Below are positions 21,739-52,799 of a DNA stretch of 64,000 bases, in pieces. Under the pieces are notes generated by a model that searched no databases, had not been told where the DNA came from, and saw nothing but the letters and a program-made list of their open reading frames with translations. The stretch is taken from assembly GCA_016841245.1 (NCBI GenBank), contig JAENZN010000004.1, forward strand, positions 1-64,000, read 5' to 3'. How positions within the stretch are numbered: position 1 is the stretch's first letter; each line of letters opens with the position of its first letter. The position numbers were made by a program, and so were the translations under genes. This DNA comes from Syntrophomonas sp. (GTDB lineage: Bacteria > Bacillota > Syntrophomonadia > Syntrophomonadales > Syntrophomonadaceae).

Positions 21739-22050
21739 GTGCGCCACGAGCGCACGCTTCCTGAAGGAAGCGGCGAGGCTGTACAGAAGATGATGGAAGG
21801 CCCATCGAAGCCGGCTTGTAGGAGCAGGCTTCAAACCACCTCAAGCTGCATAGGTAAAGAACCATTGTAGTGAGCGTTGCGGAAAAGGCAGTATAAAACT
21901 GTCAGGTGAGGAACAAGGAGACGAGCGCAAGCGAACCACTGACGAAGTGTCGAAAGCGTAGGAACGGCGTCAAAACCGGGGATTGTTGTATTGATACTGT
22001 AATAATACCAACAACCAATATATATAAGCGACGAGTCCAAGGCTCAGAAG
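21739..22050 (+). mobile_element. 5' part of another group II intron, inserted at the YADD codons
   Basis: Starts GTGCGCCACGAGCGCACGC, a canonical intron 5' end forming a hairpin, followed by structured non-coding sequence with GAAGCCGGCTTGTAGGAGC and GAAAGCGTAGGAACGGCGTC. It lies in the same orientation as the RT remnant it interrupts. No 3' domains V or VI are visible before the next gene, so it is truncated near 22050. Confidence 0.6.
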
Positions 22051-33968: not shown

Positions 33969-34763
33969 ATGCCCAGACAACAGCGGAAATTAAGCGAAAC
34001 CGGAATTTATCATGTAATAATGCGGGGAAACGAAAGAAAAAACCTGTTTTACGATGAAGAAGATAAAAACAGATTTATTCAAATACTGTTTAATAAAAAG
34101 AAAGAGAAAGGTTTTATAATTTACGCATATTGCCTTATGGATAATCATATCCACCTACTGCTAAAAGAAGGTGCAGAAGGGATAGCGGCCATGATGAAAC
34201 GTATCAATGTCAGCTATGCCTATTACTTCAATCAAAAGAACCATCGAGTAGGTCACGTCTTTCAAGATCGCTTTATAAGTGAAACTGTAAATGATGACCG
34301 ATATTTACTCGCTGTTATTCGATACATCCATAACAATCCTGTAAAAGCAGGGATTGTGGCGAAACCCGGGCAGTACAAGTGGAGCAGTTACAACTTTTAT
34401 ATTTTTCAACACAATTCGGAAACAAACATGATAAATACAGATTTCATCCTGTCTATTCTGGCAAATGATCGGGAAACAGCAATAAAGGAATTCAGACTAT
34501 TTTCGATGGAGAAAGATGAAAGAGAGTTCCTTGAGGTTGATGAACAAATCATCTGGACAGCAGAAACAGGAAAGACTTATCTGGAGGAATATCTTAAGCA
34601 GGAATGGCCAGGTAAAAGCTTGCGAGAATTAATTAACAACAAAGATACCCGTGCAGCACTGATAATCCACCTGAAGTTAAACACAAAACTGTCCATCAGG
34701 GTGATAGCTGATTTATTGGAGATCAATCGAGGAATAGTACAGAAAACTAAGGCCAAGAGATAA
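33969..34763 (+). mobile_element. Y1 transposase of the RAYT type, copy 2
   Basis: A 264-residue protein related to copy 1 but clearly diverged: RQQRKLSETGIYHVIMRGNE, AYCLMDNHIHLLLKE (HxH), VFQDRFISETVNDDRYLLAV and YIHNNPVKAGIVAKPGQYKW. The tail LSIRVIADLLEINRGIV matches that of copy 1. ATG follows AGAGGAGGGAGCCC. Inverted REP-like ends flank it. Its insertion cut the 5' part off the gene whose last codons remain at 34810-34923. Confidence 0.88.
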
Positions 34764-36822: not shown

Positions 36823-38163
36823 ATGAGAGTTTTATTTATAAAGAAGCGAAAATATGCTAAAAAGATTTTCAGTGATTATACTCATAACAGTTTGATCAAT
36901 CCTGAAGATGACCTTCCCGACCCCAGCCTACTTGCCAAGTTCAGAACCAAACGGCTTAAAGAAACCAGCCTGGATGACATTATTAAAGAAGTGGTCCGTC
37001 AATGCGTAGAAAAAGGCATAATCAAAAGCAACAATGGCATTGCCATAGATACCACTCACATTGAAGCAAACACAATCAAAAAAGTACCCGAGCGCATTAT
37101 GAAGCAGTTGGCTAAAAATATATTTAAAGCCATGGGGCAGGAGGAATATGAAATACCGGATTATACCCAGATAGAAGATCATGGTACAGCCAAACAAGTT
37201 ATGAAGGATTATCTGGAAAACCTGATAGAACAAACTGGTGACGAAAACTCAGAGGAAGTCAACCAAGCAGTCCAGGAGGCTCAGGAAATCTTAGAAAGCG
37301 ATCTATTCATAGAACAAAAAGGCATCCGTTCCCTGGTAGACAAAGATGCCCGAGTAGGGCACAAAAGCAAGACCCAGAATTTTTACGGCTACAAGGCGGA
37401 AATATGTCAAACTACTGACGGTAGTTTAATAACCAGCGTTACTGTAGAACCGGGTTCGTATGTTGATGGCAGCAATTTTAAAGAGCATCTTGAAGAAACC
37501 CGAAAATCCGGATTGACCGTAACCGGAGTATATGGCGACAAAGCCTATTTCCGTCCCGACATCCTTAACCTGATCAAGGAAAAAGGAGCTTCAGCCTATA
37601 TACCGGTAAGCGCCAGCGCTTACAAAATCGACGAAGAGTTGTTCAGCTACAACAAGGACAGTGACCAATGGTTTTGTATCATGGGAAATGAAACAGTAAA
37701 GGTAAAATCCAAAATACGTGAACGAAATGGTCAAAAAAGGAAGTACCTGGATTACAGCTTTGGACGTGAGCTCTGCCGGAACTGTCCTCATCGAAGCGAA
37801 TGCATGGGAAAGAGTAAACGGATAGCCAAGTTAATGACAATCAGCGTAAATACCCCTGAACTATATGAGTACAGCCAAAGAGCAAAAACCCCGGAATTTC
37901 TTGAGGAATACCGTAAGCGAGCGAAAATCGAACCCAAGAATGCAGAATTAAAAAGATTCCATGGACTAGACCGAGCCAGAGGCTACGGTCTACGAAGTAT
38001 CGGCATTCAGGCCAAACTAACGGCCCTGGCGGTAAATCTAAAGCGGATAGCCAAGCTGGTATCCGCTTTAAAAGGATTAAACTCTTATTTTCTGCGCTGT
38101 TCATCATGTTGCTTATTGATTATCCGACCAGCTTGGATTGGCTCTGACGTCCAAACGGTTTAA
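36823..38163 (+). mobile_element. IS1182-family transposase, N-terminally truncated
   Basis: A 446-residue DDE transposase. It joins the family at LINPEDDLPDPSLLAKFRTK and contains GIAIDTTHIEANT (first Asp), LVDKDARVGHKSKTQNFYGY, VTGVYGDKAYF (second Asp) and KRAKIEPKNAELKRFHGLDR (the Glu). A CxxCxxxxxC zinc-like CRNCPHRSEC is present. Family members carry about 80 further residues upstream; here the start (KKRKYAKKIF) is unrelated, so the element is 5'-truncated and probably inactive. The C terminus runs beyond the last family block and ends just before a REP-like half repeat. Confidence 0.85.
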
Positions 38164-38208: not shown

Positions 38209-38237
38209 TTGACACTTTTGGGCTGCGTCATTATAAT
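38209..38237 (+). promoter_or_regulatory. Consensus sigma-A promoter of the trpXYZ unit
   Basis: TTGACA (38209-38214), exactly 17 bp, TATAAT (38232-38237). Both hexamers match consensus fully. Transcription should start near 38244, at the beginning of the T-box leader. The -35 box lies in the REP-like repeat edge. Confidence 0.85.
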
Positions 38238-38243
38238 GAAATA

Positions 38244-38535
38244 ATTAAACCGATGATGTGGAGATAAAACCGTTTAAGCACCTACAGAGAGCAGGGGATG
38301 GTGGAAAACCTGCGGAGACGCTGTTCGGCAAATGGACCACTGAGGGCGAAGTGAACGGCATCTAGATAGTTTGAATCCAGTAGCTGAGACGTAAGTTGGC
38401 GTTAACAACAGAAGTATGCAGCATTCTTGGTGGGTATCAATAACTTTGCTGATAAGTAAAATTATTGAATCGAAATGGATTAAGGTGGTACAGCAGATAA
38501 TATCTGTCCTTAAATTGGACGGATTTTTTATTTTT
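38244..38535 (+). ncRNA. T-box riboswitch, tryptophan specifier (UGG)
   Basis: T-box leaders bind uncharged tRNA and allow read-through when the amino acid is scarce. Here AGAGAGC near 38286 and GGATGGTGGAAAACC (38296-38310) form the stem I elements; the specifier loop reads CAAATGGACC with TGG at 38333-38335 (Trp); the T-box core is AAGGTGGTACAGCAG (38482-38496); and a terminator hairpin CTGTCC/GGACGG plus T-run ends at about 38535. The antiterminator bulge with GGTG would pair the tRNA acceptor end. Downstream genes match a tryptophan transporter, which fits the specifier. Confidence 0.92.
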
Positions 38536-38652
38536 ATGGCTATTTTTTAATTAATATTTATTTTATAGCAAAAACATGATACCAGAAGGGATTACGGATC
38601 CTCAATTTTGCTTTGAGTATACAAAAACAATTTATTTGAAGGAGTGGGTATT

Positions 38653-39630
38653 ATGAAAAAGTTACTGGCACTATTACTCGTTCTCATTGTGGGACTGGGA
38701 ACAATAAGCGGATGCTCAAGCGAAAGCGAAACTAACCAGCAGGAAGTCTTTAAAATCGGTATTGTACAGCCAATGGATCATCCTTCCTTGAATCAGATCC
38801 GGGAGACGATAATTTCAGAATTGAAAGCACAAGGTATGGAAGACAAAGTTGAAATTATTTTCAAAAACGCTAACGGCGATATGAGCCTGTTGCCGTCTAT
38901 AATGCAAGATTTGCTGAATGATAATGTGGACATGCTGGTTCCAATTGCAACCCCTACTGCGCAGGCCGCACTGGCTTCTACTACCGAGGTGCCGATCGTG
39001 TTTTCCGCAGTAAGCAATCCTGTGGAAGCAGGCCTGGTTACTTCTTTTGAAGAAACAAGCGGAAATATAACCGGCGTTTCCAACTCTATTGCCATAGAAG
39101 ATATTTTTGAGTTAGCAGGTACATTAACACCAGAGGCAAAAGTATTCGGTTTTGTGTATAACAGCAGTGAAATAAATTCAACCACTGGAATTGAAAGAGC
39201 CAGGGCTTATTGTGATAAAAACGGCATTGAATACCAAGAAGCTACAATCACGGGTACCGCCGATCTGCAACAGGCTGCTGCTTCATTAGTCGACCAGGTA
39301 GACGCCTTCTTTACACCAAATGACAATACGGTAGCATCAGCCATGGCTACTTACGTTCAGGTTGCAACAGATGCCCAACTCCCTATTTATGCCGGCGCTG
39401 ATTCCATGGTTAAAGATGGGGCTCTGGCAACAGTAGGTATAGACTATACTGTATTGGGAAAACAGACTGCAGCCATGATTGTACGTATTTGTAATGGTCA
39501 AACTATCGAAGAAAATCATGTTGAGCAGATTGCTGAATATGCCAATATGATTAATATGAATACAGCGAACACGTTGGGGATAGCCATTCCCGAGGAATTA
39601 AAAGATCAATTTGTCATTCTTAGTGAATAG
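38653..39630 (+). CDS. trpX: Tryptophan ABC transporter, substrate-binding lipoprotein
   Basis: A 325-residue lipoprotein: signal LLALLLVLIVGLGTISGC with Cys20 as the lipidated residue. The rest is the ABC substrate-binding family formerly DUF534: FKIGIVQPMDHPSLNQIRET, VPIVFSAVSNPVEAGLV, GFVYNSSEINSTTGIERARA, and IYAGADSMVKDGALATVGID. Anchored outside, it captures the substrate and hands it to TrpY. ATG 38653 follows GAAGGAGTGGGTATT. Tryptophan as substrate is supported by the T-box specifier, not by the protein alone. Confidence 0.88.
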   Translation: MKKLLALLLVLIVGLGTISGCSSESETNQQEVFKIGIVQPMDHPSLNQIRETIISELKAQGMEDKVEIIFKNANGDMSLLPSIMQDLLNDNVDMLVPIATPTAQAALASTTEVPIVFSAVSNPVEAGLVTSFEETSGNITGVSNSIAIEDIFELAGTLTPEAKVFGFVYNSSEINSTTGIERARAYCDKNGIEYQEATITGTADLQQAAASLVDQVDAFFTPNDNTVASAMATYVQVATDAQLPIYAGADSMVKDGALATVGIDYTVLGKQTAAMIVRICNGQTIEENHVEQIAEYANMINMNTANTLGIAIPEELKDQFVILSE

Positions 39631-39663
39631 CAGCAACTGAAATAATAATAAAAGGAAAACAAT

Positions 39664-40575
39664 ATGACACTATTAATTGGGTCTTTACAGCTTGGTTTGC
39701 TGTATGCCCCCATGGCATTGGGAATTTATATAACATTTCGCATTCTGAACATGCCTGACCTGACTGTTGATGGCAGTTTCTCTCTTGGTATGGCTTGTGC
39801 TGCTGTGGCAACCATAAGCGGTCATCCTTTCCTGGCATTATTCATTGCAATTATAGCCGGCGCATCAGCCGGCTTAGCAACTGGTTTATTACATACCAAG
39901 CTGAGTATACACCCCATATTGGCAGGAATTCTGGTTATGACCGGCTTATATACCATCAACCTAGCATTTATGGGAGGAAAAGCAAATCTATCACTAGTTG
40001 GCAGTCAGACCATTTTTTCTGCTATGGAATCCATGATTGCTGTGCCGGGCGGAATGGGGAAAACCCTTTTGGCCTTGTTCATATGCATAATCATTATAGC
40101 TATACTTGCAATAGTCTTTAAAACAAGAGTTGGCTTTGCCATTAGGGCAACCGGGGATAATGAGGACATGGTTCGTTTGTCCTCCATAAATGCCAATGCT
40201 TCAAAATGTATCGCCCTATCAATGGGAAATGCCTGTGTTGCTTTATCCGGCGCTTTAATCTGTCAATACCAGATGTTCTCGGATGTGAATTCCGGAAGCG
40301 GCATGGTCATCATTGGCCTGGCATCTGTCATTATTGGTGAGACTATATTTGGCAGGCGTTCTGTTACCATCGGTTTAGTTTCAGCGGCAGTTGGTTCTAT
40401 TCTTTACAGAATTATTCTGGCATTTGCCCTGAAAATAGACATGTTCCCCGCATACTCATTAAAGCTGATTTCAGCAGTCATTGTAATTATTGCTCTTTCC
40501 GGGCCGACAATTAAAGCAGTCATACAGCAGAATAAAATCAGAAGGGAGGTTAACAACCATTTAATTAATAAATAG
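39664..40575 (+). CDS. trpY: Tryptophan ABC transporter, permease
   Basis: A 303-residue membrane protein of the branched-chain-type permease fold: LQLGLLYAPMALGIYITFRI at the start with LTVDGSFSLG, IHPILAGILVMTGLYTINLA, and GFAIRATGDNEDMVRLSSIN, the cytoplasmic coupling loop. About nine helices. It lies 33 bp after trpX and probably works as a dimer with TrpZ. Ends with a basic tail. A hairpin-like repeat separates it from trpZ. Confidence 0.88.
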   Translation: MTLLIGSLQLGLLYAPMALGIYITFRILNMPDLTVDGSFSLGMACAAVATISGHPFLALFIAIIAGASAGLATGLLHTKLSIHPILAGILVMTGLYTINLAFMGGKANLSLVGSQTIFSAMESMIAVPGGMGKTLLALFICIIIIAILAIVFKTRVGFAIRATGDNEDMVRLSSINANASKCIALSMGNACVALSGALICQYQMFSDVNSGSGMVIIGLASVIIGETIFGRRSVTIGLVSAAVGSILYRIILAFALKIDMFPAYSLKLISAVIVIIALSGPTIKAVIQQNKIRREVNNHLINK

Positions 40576-40616
40576 CTTACAGACCGTCAAAAAAGCCCAA
40601 TAAATGCGTTTTTAAC

Positions 40617-40682
40617 GAAGGCCCGTTCAATCAACGTACCTTATGTATGCCTCAATCACGTGCTTTCATTAATGCCTTGCTT
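40617..40682 (+). repeat. Repeat copy A between trpY and trpZ
   Basis: Shares GTTCAATCAACGTACCTTAT followed by GTAtGCCTCAATCACG with copy B at 41552-41625. The outer arms are decayed here (GAAGGCCC versus GTGCTTTC), so hairpin strength is low. It probably does not terminate strongly, which allows trpZ expression. Confidence 0.65.
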
Positions 40683-40728
40683 TTGAACTTTTTTGCTCGG
40701 ACTGATTTTATTAAATGGTTGATTTATT

Positions 40729-41520
40729 ATGTTGGATTTAATTAATGTAAGCAAAACTTTTTTTGCTGGAACTATAAATGAAAAAAAGGCTTTAAATTCC
40801 ATAAACCTCCATCTGGAACCGGGAGACTTTGTAAGCATAATCGGCTCAAATGGTGCCGGCAAGTCCTCCGTGTTTAATGCCATATCCGGAGCATTCTATA
40901 TTGATAGTGGTGCCATTCTTCTGGATAATAAGAATATTAGCATGATGGCGGACTATAAAAGGGCATATGACATGGGCAGGCTAATGCAGGATCCTATGAA
41001 AGGGACTGCTCCTTCATTGACTATTGAGGAGAATCTGGCTCTTGCTTACAGCAGAAAAGCCCATAAAAGCTTCTTTGCATTAAACAAGAGGGATTTGGAA
41101 TACTTTAGAGAATTATTGACCCGCCTTGATTTAGGTTTGGAAAAACGCATGAAAACCAAGGTGGGCAATTTATCAGGAGGTCAAAGGCAGGCCGTTACCC
41201 TGCTCATGTGCACAATATCATCACCTAAGCTGTTGCTTTTAGATGAGCATACTGCTGCCCTTGATCCCGAGACAGCACAAAAAATATTACAAATAACCAG
41301 GGATATTGTTGCTGAATCAAAAATAACCACCATGATGATCACCCACGATATCAGATCTGCCCTGGCTCTTGGTAATCGTACCATTATGATGGATGAGGGG
41401 GAGATCATACTGGATATCAAAGGTGAAGAACGCAGCAAAATGACCATTGAGGAATTATTAACCTACTACTCCCGGGAGAGAAAAAAACAGCTGACAGATG
41501 ATCGAATTTTACTAGCTTGA
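40729..41520 (+). CDS. trpZ: Tryptophan ABC transporter, ATPase
   Basis: A 263-residue ABC ATPase: Walker A GSNGAGKSS (about 39-47), Q-loop in MQDPMKGTAP, signature LSGGQRQAV, Walker B KLLLLDEHTAALDP (His at the D-loop-near position instead of Pro in DEP), and the switch His in MITHDIRSAL. It powers TrpXY uptake. ATG 40729 has weak upstream site (AAATGG). It is 150 bp from trpY, separated by repeat copy A, and is followed by repeat copy B. Confidence 0.88.
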   Translation: MLDLINVSKTFFAGTINEKKALNSINLHLEPGDFVSIIGSNGAGKSSVFNAISGAFYIDSGAILLDNKNISMMADYKRAYDMGRLMQDPMKGTAPSLTIEENLALAYSRKAHKSFFALNKRDLEYFRELLTRLDLGLEKRMKTKVGNLSGGQRQAVTLLMCTISSPKLLLLDEHTAALDPETAQKILQITRDIVAESKITTMMITHDIRSALALGNRTIMMDEGEIILDIKGEERSKMTIEELLTYYSRERKKQLTDDRILLA

Positions 41521-41551: not shown

Positions 41552-41603
41552 AGAAGCCCGGTTCAATCAACGTACCTTATGTACGCCTCAATCACGGGCT
41601 TCT
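41552..41603. terminator. Repeat copy B, terminator between trpZ and the dehydrogenase gene
   Basis: AGAAGCCCG and CGGGCTTCT form a perfect 9-bp stem; GTAC pairs inside. TTTAATTT follows on the plus strand. It lies between converging genes. Its inner sequence is the same as copy A. Confidence 0.75.
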
Positions 41604-41650
41604 TTAATTTCTTGCTCTTTATGTTTTTTGCTCGGCCGGTATATTCCTGA

Positions 41651-52608: not shown

Positions 52609-52701
52609 TATTACTAATTTTACCGCAAAACCTGAGGGTACCAAAACCATGAGATAGTCTTCTAATTGACAGGTTCTTTTTAATAGTATTATATTAATAG
52701 T

Positions 52702-52799
52702 GAGGTCATATGACTGACGGAAGTGGAATTAACCACGTGAAGTATGACTGATAGATGCCGACCGTCTGGGTAACAAAGCCTGGGTTGTCGGCTTTTTTA
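52702..52799 (+). ncRNA. ZTP (pfl) riboswitch with terminator
   Basis: The ZTP aptamer senses the purine intermediate ZMP/ZTP. Here AGGTCATATGACTGACGGAA matches the conserved first part (GUGACUGGCG in most), AAGTGGAATTAACCAC the hairpin, and ACCGTCTGGGTA the conserved second part (CCGCCUGGGCA). A terminator overlaps it: GCCGAC (52757-52762) pairs with GTCGGC (52787-52792), followed by TTTTTT. ZTP binding should prevent the terminator, turning on the AICAR transformylase gene. It ends 85 bp before that start. Confidence 0.85.

Follow-up and report, generated by a model that had tools for sequence, protein, structure and literature searches.

A tryptophan-specific T-box before a trpXYZ-like operon of Syntrophomonas, with an ACA bulge and no detected stem III motif

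The 64,000-nucleotide stretch analysed here (the window) comprises positions 1 to 64,000 of contig JAENZN010000004.1 of Syntrophomonas sp. (GCA_016841245.1), and it carries on its plus strand, at 38244-38529 in front of a trpXYZ-like transporter operon, a transcriptional T-box that is specific for tryptophan. We found that the real departure of this leader from the described T-box lies in an antiterminator bulge that ends in ACA, together with the loss of the stem III-AA motif. Judged from sequence, we give a probability of roughly 0.68 to the reading that it is a working tryptophan-specific transcriptional T-box, which would sense tRNA charging without the RRRxG-stem III-AA module.

The segment 38244-38514 is a full-length match (1-219) to Rfam family RF00230, with 64.4 bits and an E value of 1e-13 over the 601 bases scanned. 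Since this score lies below the gathering score of 93, the leader has no entry in a gathering-level scan, and it is the lowest-scoring of the 12 T-boxes in its own genome. The same leader stands 5' of the orthologue in two congeners, and it recurs in other genera. A chance match or a misread T-box is ruled out by the E value, the 12 T-boxes of the genome, the leaders of the congeners and the covariation described below, while folding of the whole leader was uninformative (z -1.44). A preliminary description, made from the letters of the window, had claimed that the T-box core and the terminator were visible, and both were located, with the core AAGGTGGTACAGCAG at 38482-38496 and the terminator at 38502-38529.

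All features of the leader lie on the plus strand. A promoter of the form TTGACA-17-TATAAT (38209-38237) places the expected transcription start near 38244, and both hexamers are common to all six aligned relatives (L077, L080, L081, L082, L085 and L095; L and G numbers are our own labels). Stem I (38250-38345), with its K-turn, its AG bulge/GNUG loop and its specifier loop, is placed by the Rfam alignment and by helices 1-6 of the structure alignment. It is followed by the stem II region (38346-38389), which has an S-turn (AGUA/GAA) and a variable upper part, with alignment pair 110-145 being GC four times, AU three times and GU once, and by the stem IIA/B pseudoknot (38390-38409), which shows compensatory changes in both helices. 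Between this pseudoknot and the antiterminator lies an extra hairpin (38410-38429), which is found in trpXYZ leaders whose bulge ends in ACC and in those whose bulge does not. Its loop region reads AUGUGUUGGCAU in the relatives, and three of its pairs have changed on both sides, with the rows of the window's genus misaligned there; we also observed that the loop of this covarying hairpin resembles UGUUGG. A linker (38430-38479) occupies the place expected for stem III and AA, and the motif was not found in it. The antiterminator (38480-38513) is formed by helices A1 (UUAAGG/CCUUAA) and A2 (GCAGA/UCUGU) with a basal G-U wobble, and encloses the 7-nucleotide bulge UGGUACA (38486-38492). Its 3' strand is shared with the intrinsic terminator (38502-38529), which pairs ATCTGTCC with GGACGGAT over 8 base pairs, ends in T6 (U6 in RNA), has a predicted energy of -11.0 kcal/mol and excludes the antiterminator.

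The specifier had previously been read as TGG at 38333-38335. This was borne out by the frame of the Rfam alignment and by the relatives: the tryptophan codon UGG is followed there by A and by CCAC, which forms the closing strand of the specifier loop. Read in this frame, other T-boxes of this genome show fitting codons in front of genes recognised by eye (AUC for ileS, UUC for pheS, UGG for trpS, UGC for cysE-cysS and GGC for glyQ-glyS). UGG is kept in 32 of the 33 related leaders that still have a specifier region (29 by script; L059, L064 and L093 by eye), a count that leaves aside L053, which is cut off, and the second leader of Gudongella, which has UUC. Another codon in the specifier loop, which the preliminary description had named as the finding that would speak against it, is allowed nowhere in the stem I frame without leaving the alignment, and a shift of one base to AUG or GGA finds support neither in that frame nor in the 32 of 33 relatives. 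The genome's own tRNA-Trp has the anticodon CCA and the discriminator base G, such that pairing of its G-CCA end with the bulge UGGU includes a U-G wobble; according to TBDB, 46% of tryptophan T-boxes have U as the last base of UGGN (PMC7778990).

It had also been noted that the core departs from CCGCGG. The departure is real, but two different things had been merged in it, a compensated GCAG strand and an unusual change of the bulge from ACC to ACA. GCAG, which stands in place of GCGG, is the 5' strand of A2 and is paired by CTGT (CUGU in RNA), as in canonical relatives; decay of the A2 helix was rejected on this ground, since the combination is usual in this group. A pattern for this helix, AAGGTGGNANNGCAG...CTGTCCTT, occurred at 24 places in 22 of 398 genomes of the phylum, and 21 of these places had ACC. 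The remaining three, with AYA, fall in the window and in its two congeners. In the window the 3' trinucleotide of the bulge (38490-38492) is ACA, giving UGGU-ACA as opposed to UGGN-ACC, and among its relatives AUA is found in L077, L095, L081, L082 and both L085 leaders, and GCU in L080.

The AYA bulge is rare, not unique. Among 150 matches listed from 25 genomes of the phylum, a hand count gave 124 ACC, 19 AAC, two AUC, two AUA, two ACA and one ACU. Cores with AYA gave matches in 2 of 67 and 3 of 199 genomes of further orders, of which none beyond G447 and G448 were T-boxes; the AYA matches L152, L193 and L195 look by eye like coding sequence and were discarded. A slipped antiterminator with a 4-nucleotide bulge (AYAG/CUGU) can be drawn but was rejected as less stable, at -2.3 to -4.3 kcal/mol versus -7.1 to -7.9 kcal/mol for the canonical form in 7 of 7 non-ACC leaders, L080 being left out of this comparison. 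Elsewhere in the window's genome, a T-box at G000:C18:71842-72074 (L011, L201), with the specifier AUC and in front of ferredoxin-oxidoreductase-like genes, has an AUA bulge, as does its likely orthologue in G042 (L199).

The second departure concerns stem III. Neither the Rfam alignment nor motif scoring found an RRRxG-stem III-AA arrangement in front of A1 in the window leader. Across the 34 trpXYZ leaders scored, a hairpin followed by AA precedes A1 in 25 of 25 ACC leaders versus 1 of 9 non-ACC leaders, and with stricter scoring that includes the purines, the full motif is present in 24 of 25 and 0 of 9, respectively, with one of the nine (L093) being a mis-scored ACC leader. This set includes L053, whose contig begins inside the leader; L086 was dropped since its core lies near the end of its stretch, L069 was not entered because its A1 sequence differs, and no core of the trpXYZ type could be located in L057, L067, L068 and L088. 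Further ACC leaders that share this A2 helix also have the hairpin and AA (19 of 19). In the scoring that included the purines, the script detected no hairpin-AA in four ACC leaders, namely L069, from the trpX set, L001, L181 and L189. Because the leaders are related, we set aside a Fisher's p for the association between ACC and stem III. The association does not extend to non-ACC bulges in general, as 7 of 7 AAC or AUC leaders outside trpXYZ have the hairpin and AA (five in full, two without the purines); the scoring with purines took in 51 other leaders, of which L161, L163, L185 and L188 remained unscored and L175 is the L081 trpXYZ leader again.

What makes this departure relevant is the described role of the missing parts. 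According to a review, the 3' ACC of the bulge stabilises the discriminator and touches the purine string of stem III, and RRRxG-stem III-AA is highly conserved (PMC7583486). In the accessible parts of the open-access papers covered, with most subscription papers outside this scope and the 2008-2009 surveys represented through PMC2494555, we found, beyond the review PMC7583486, nothing on a T-box without stem III or on T-boxes of Syntrophomonas.

We aligned the eight non-ACC leaders, namely that of the window, those of two Syntrophomonas metagenome-assembled genomes (MAGs; L077 and L095), Eubacteriaceae MAG W4 (L080), Clostridiales MAG AS22 (L081) and Alkalibacter mobilis (L082), and the two of Gudongella (L085). 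A hand-written T-box structure of 43 pairs left 97.6% of the 340 cells paired, with 9 of the 43 pairs changed on both sides and 0 of 500 shuffles scoring as high, figures that are favoured by the structure having been partly read from the same eight sequences. Compensation is seen in stems I and II, in each of the two helices of the IIA/B pseudoknot and in the extra hairpin. A1 is invariant (8 of 8 in five pairs), A2 varies by only one unpaired cell and one gap, and the basal G-U wobble, described as the main charge sensor in PMC7583486, is present in 8 of 8. When the window is compared to its two congeners, the antiterminator is identical at 34/35 and 33/35 positions and stem I at 99/103 and 98/104, while the spacer drifts (86/108 and 66/108). 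Moreover, the core UGGCAUAGCAGAT is retained in other genera (L081, L082 and L085) despite linkers that cannot be aligned.

Gudongella offers further support. Its operon encodes two binding proteins, a permease and an ATPase, in this order, and each binding protein has its own leader of this type. Leader 1 combines UGG with UGGC, and leader 2, a T-box in front of the second TrpX-like binding protein (L085 4515-4766), combines UUC with UGGU, with an odd C after UUC instead of a purine. The tRNA-Trp of Gudongella ends in G-CCA and its tRNA-Phe in A-CCA, the latter read by eye from a gene cut by the contig end. The second leader is likely to represent a switch from tryptophan to phenylalanine. 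The specifier and UGGN have both shifted to fit tRNA-Phe, a joint change that a dead element would not undergo, so the non-ACC variant without stem III probably works.

We infer from these features how tRNA binding and charge sensing would proceed. Uncharged tRNA-Trp would pair through its anticodon CCA with the UGG of stem I and through its G-CCA end with UGGU in the bulge, stabilising the antiterminator and letting RNA polymerase proceed into the importer genes. Charged tRNA-Trp could not do so, and the terminator would form. The discriminator would sense charging by means of A1, A2, the basal G-U wobble and a 7-nucleotide bulge ending in AYA, with a substitute for stem III possibly provided by the longer linker, by the extra hairpin or by the AYA bulge itself.

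Several points weigh against this reading. According to the review, stem III is indispensable, and an antiterminator by itself scarcely bound tRNA (PMC7583486). The nine non-ACC leaders of the scored set may represent one event, since a single clade is not rejected on the TrpX tree (p 0.131). The lone non-ACC leader with a hairpin and AA is the second Gudongella leader, in a match that shares bases with the extra hairpin and has a chance probability of 0.17 per sequence. Nor is the tie between AYA and stem III a general one: L197 and L198 (both ACA) and L199 (AUA) retain by eye a short hairpin and purines, which rules out a strict link between A at bulge position 7 and the lack of stem III, while in L011, the likely L199 orthologue in the window's genome, the short hairpin was not found (partly by eye). 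Finally, the window copy could itself be decaying, because its close relatives L078 and L079 have decayed leaders.

One alternative is a T-box of the ordinary kind with a displaced stem III, with the extra hairpin or a variable linker hairpin acting together with linker purines. The extra hairpin does covary and is kept in ACC and non-ACC leaders alike, 38437-38443 can pair by eye with 38462-38468 (UCAAUAA/UUAUUGA), and bulge positions 6-7 vary in other T-boxes as well (26 of the 150 matches listed are not ACC). However, canonical trpXYZ leaders carry both hairpins, which argues that the extra one is not stem III; only about 20 bases separate it from A1 in L081 and the second Gudongella leader; and no linker hairpin common to the eight non-ACC leaders was found. 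We regard this displacement as unlikely. Loss of charge sensing by decay, with termination or readthrough by default, appears rather improbable. It would fit the low Rfam score and the damaged leaders of L078 and L079, which lie close to the window on the TrpX tree: L078 (the same locus as L050) lacks the bulge and the 5' strand of A2, while in L079 the specifier reads CGG in place of UGG and its region is damaged, with the promoter kept in both. On the other hand, genuine decay as seen in these two leaders takes another form than the variant does: the window, L077, L081, L082, L085 and L095 retain an intact specifier, UGGN, A1, A2, G-U wobble and terminator, the variable helices are compensated, and a dead copy would not acquire the matching specifier and UGGN of Gudongella. 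By eye, L079 can form a new 8-base-pair stem, CCCAGGUG/CACCUGGG, around its former specifier.

The working leader without stem III that we favour would also be compatible with an importer that carries another aromatic compound, or several (phenylalanine, tyrosine), under an RNA that reads tRNA-Trp, so that tryptophan limitation would serve solely as the signal. The operon consists of a TrpX-like substrate-binding lipoprotein (38653-39630, PF04392), a TrpY-like permease (39664-40575, PF02653) and a TrpZ-like ATPase (40729-41520, PF00005), all on the plus strand. The earlier assignment of this set to TrpXYZ holds for gene order and families but is not matched by the binding protein, which scores 303.9 bits against the cutoff of 390 of the TrpX equivalog model NCBIfam NF041285 and has a phenylalanine-type pocket pair. 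Its nearest solved relative is CD0873 (6hni), followed by 3lkv and 3lft, so that a tyrosine binder ranks ahead of the tryptophan binder; these three bind tyrosine (CD0873), phenylalanine (VC_1101, 3lkv) and tryptophan (SP1069, 3lft), respectively, and in the study of these proteins, which derives its rule from three proteins, Glu is tied to tyrosine and Gln (the indole-facing Gln-284 of SP1069) to tryptophan (PMC6816091). The window protein has Ala, placed by pairwise alignments, and, where this Gln would stand, Tyr (in GIDYTVLG), which is the pair of the phenylalanine binder. Tryptophan as the substrate is therefore called from the T-box. Further in favour of a different substrate, Gudongella combines one permease and ATPase with two binding proteins under tryptophan and phenylalanine leaders. 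Against it, Tyr stands at this position in 37 of 38 binding-protein rows (L069 has Phe), most of which follow UGG leaders, and the two-residue rule may therefore fail here; in addition, a tryptophan T-box has been kept before the operon over several families. A different or broader substrate is conceivable but less likely than not. The genome can probably make tryptophan as well, with trpA adjoining a trpB-like gene.

TrpX also bears on the origin of the leader. The window protein is 93 and 89% identical to those of two Syntrophomonas MAGs, 84 and 79% to those of two further MAGs and 55-76% to those of clostridial relatives from other families, compared to about 43-48% for most TrpX of its own order, and the TrpX tree places it among the clostridial set. 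These relationships are most simply read as transfer between families. On the same tree, the ACC leader L083 stands beside the AUA leader L081. It is a tentative suggestion, to which we give somewhat less than an even chance, that these leaders form a conserved class of transcriptional T-boxes that sense tRNA charging without stem III and its purine string, by way of an AYA bulge; the class would come from a trpXYZ lineage that passed between clostridial families, and a duplication would have changed its specificity from tryptophan to phenylalanine.

Streptococcus suis already provides a tryptophan T-box upstream of trpXYZ, which was tested by mutants and a reporter (PMC9382623). It shares UGG, UGGN, the terminator and the three-gene operon with the window, but has stem III and UGGC where the window has UGGU, ACA and no detected stem III, and Q273 of its TrpX corresponds to Tyr in a motif alignment. 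The trpXYZ T-boxes of the window's own order (L051-L066 and L073, with binding proteins about 45% identical) are alike in UGG, the GCAG-type A2, the extra hairpin and the binding-protein family, but they have ACC and stem III-AA and their TrpX belongs to a different lineage. CD0873, VC_1101 and SP1069 share PF04392 and the pocket layout with the window protein, which differs in having the Ala of VC_1101 and SP1069 and the Tyr of CD0873 and VC_1101 but not the tryptophan-linked Gln (PMC6816091). Class I T-boxes (RF00230) share stem I, the IIA/B pseudoknot, A1, A2, the basal G-U wobble, UGGN and the terminator, whereas the window has no RRRxG-stem III-AA near A1, ACA in place of ACC and a score below gathering (discriminator compared with that of PMC7583486). 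We file the leader as one that works like a T-box and descends from that family, but as a variant failing two described discriminator features.

The review describes the charge-sensing core as essentially unchanged across all known T-boxes (PMC7583486). If our reading is true, a natural, conserved leader without stem III would open the claim of its indispensability to a direct test and would reveal the minimal set of parts with which an RNA can check for the amino acid on a tRNA, with the Gudongella pair as a natural test of the variant with two tRNAs. For annotation, such leaders can fall under the Rfam gathering score, and TrpXYZ substrate calls here depend on the leader, not the protein.

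The surroundings of the operon contain further elements. A dispersed hairpin repeat lies between trpY and trpZ (40619-40700, plus strand), and a member of the same family, a hairpin followed by a T-rich stretch, lies behind trpZ (41555-41640, plus strand). The repeat is a two-step hairpin (GCCCG..CAATCA-CGTAC..GTACG-CTCAATC-CGGGC) with 29-34 copies in the genome, mostly intergenic and often near gene ends, and matches were found in 10 of 31 sampled relatives (20 and 31 copies in two congeners, 26 in G058). The copy that separates trpY from trpZ looks recently inserted, because L077 lacks it and has a gap of 44 bases at this point; it might lower trpZ expression. Elsewhere in the window, two group II intron pieces and one ZMP/ZTP riboswitch score above gathering (21792-21907, 88-328 and 52700-52778). 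Fewer than 100 bases separate the end of an IS1182 transposase (36823-38163) from the T-box promoter downstream of it, and the protein encoded at 33969-34763 presumably resembles a REP-associated (Y1-type) transposase, judging from its sequence features.

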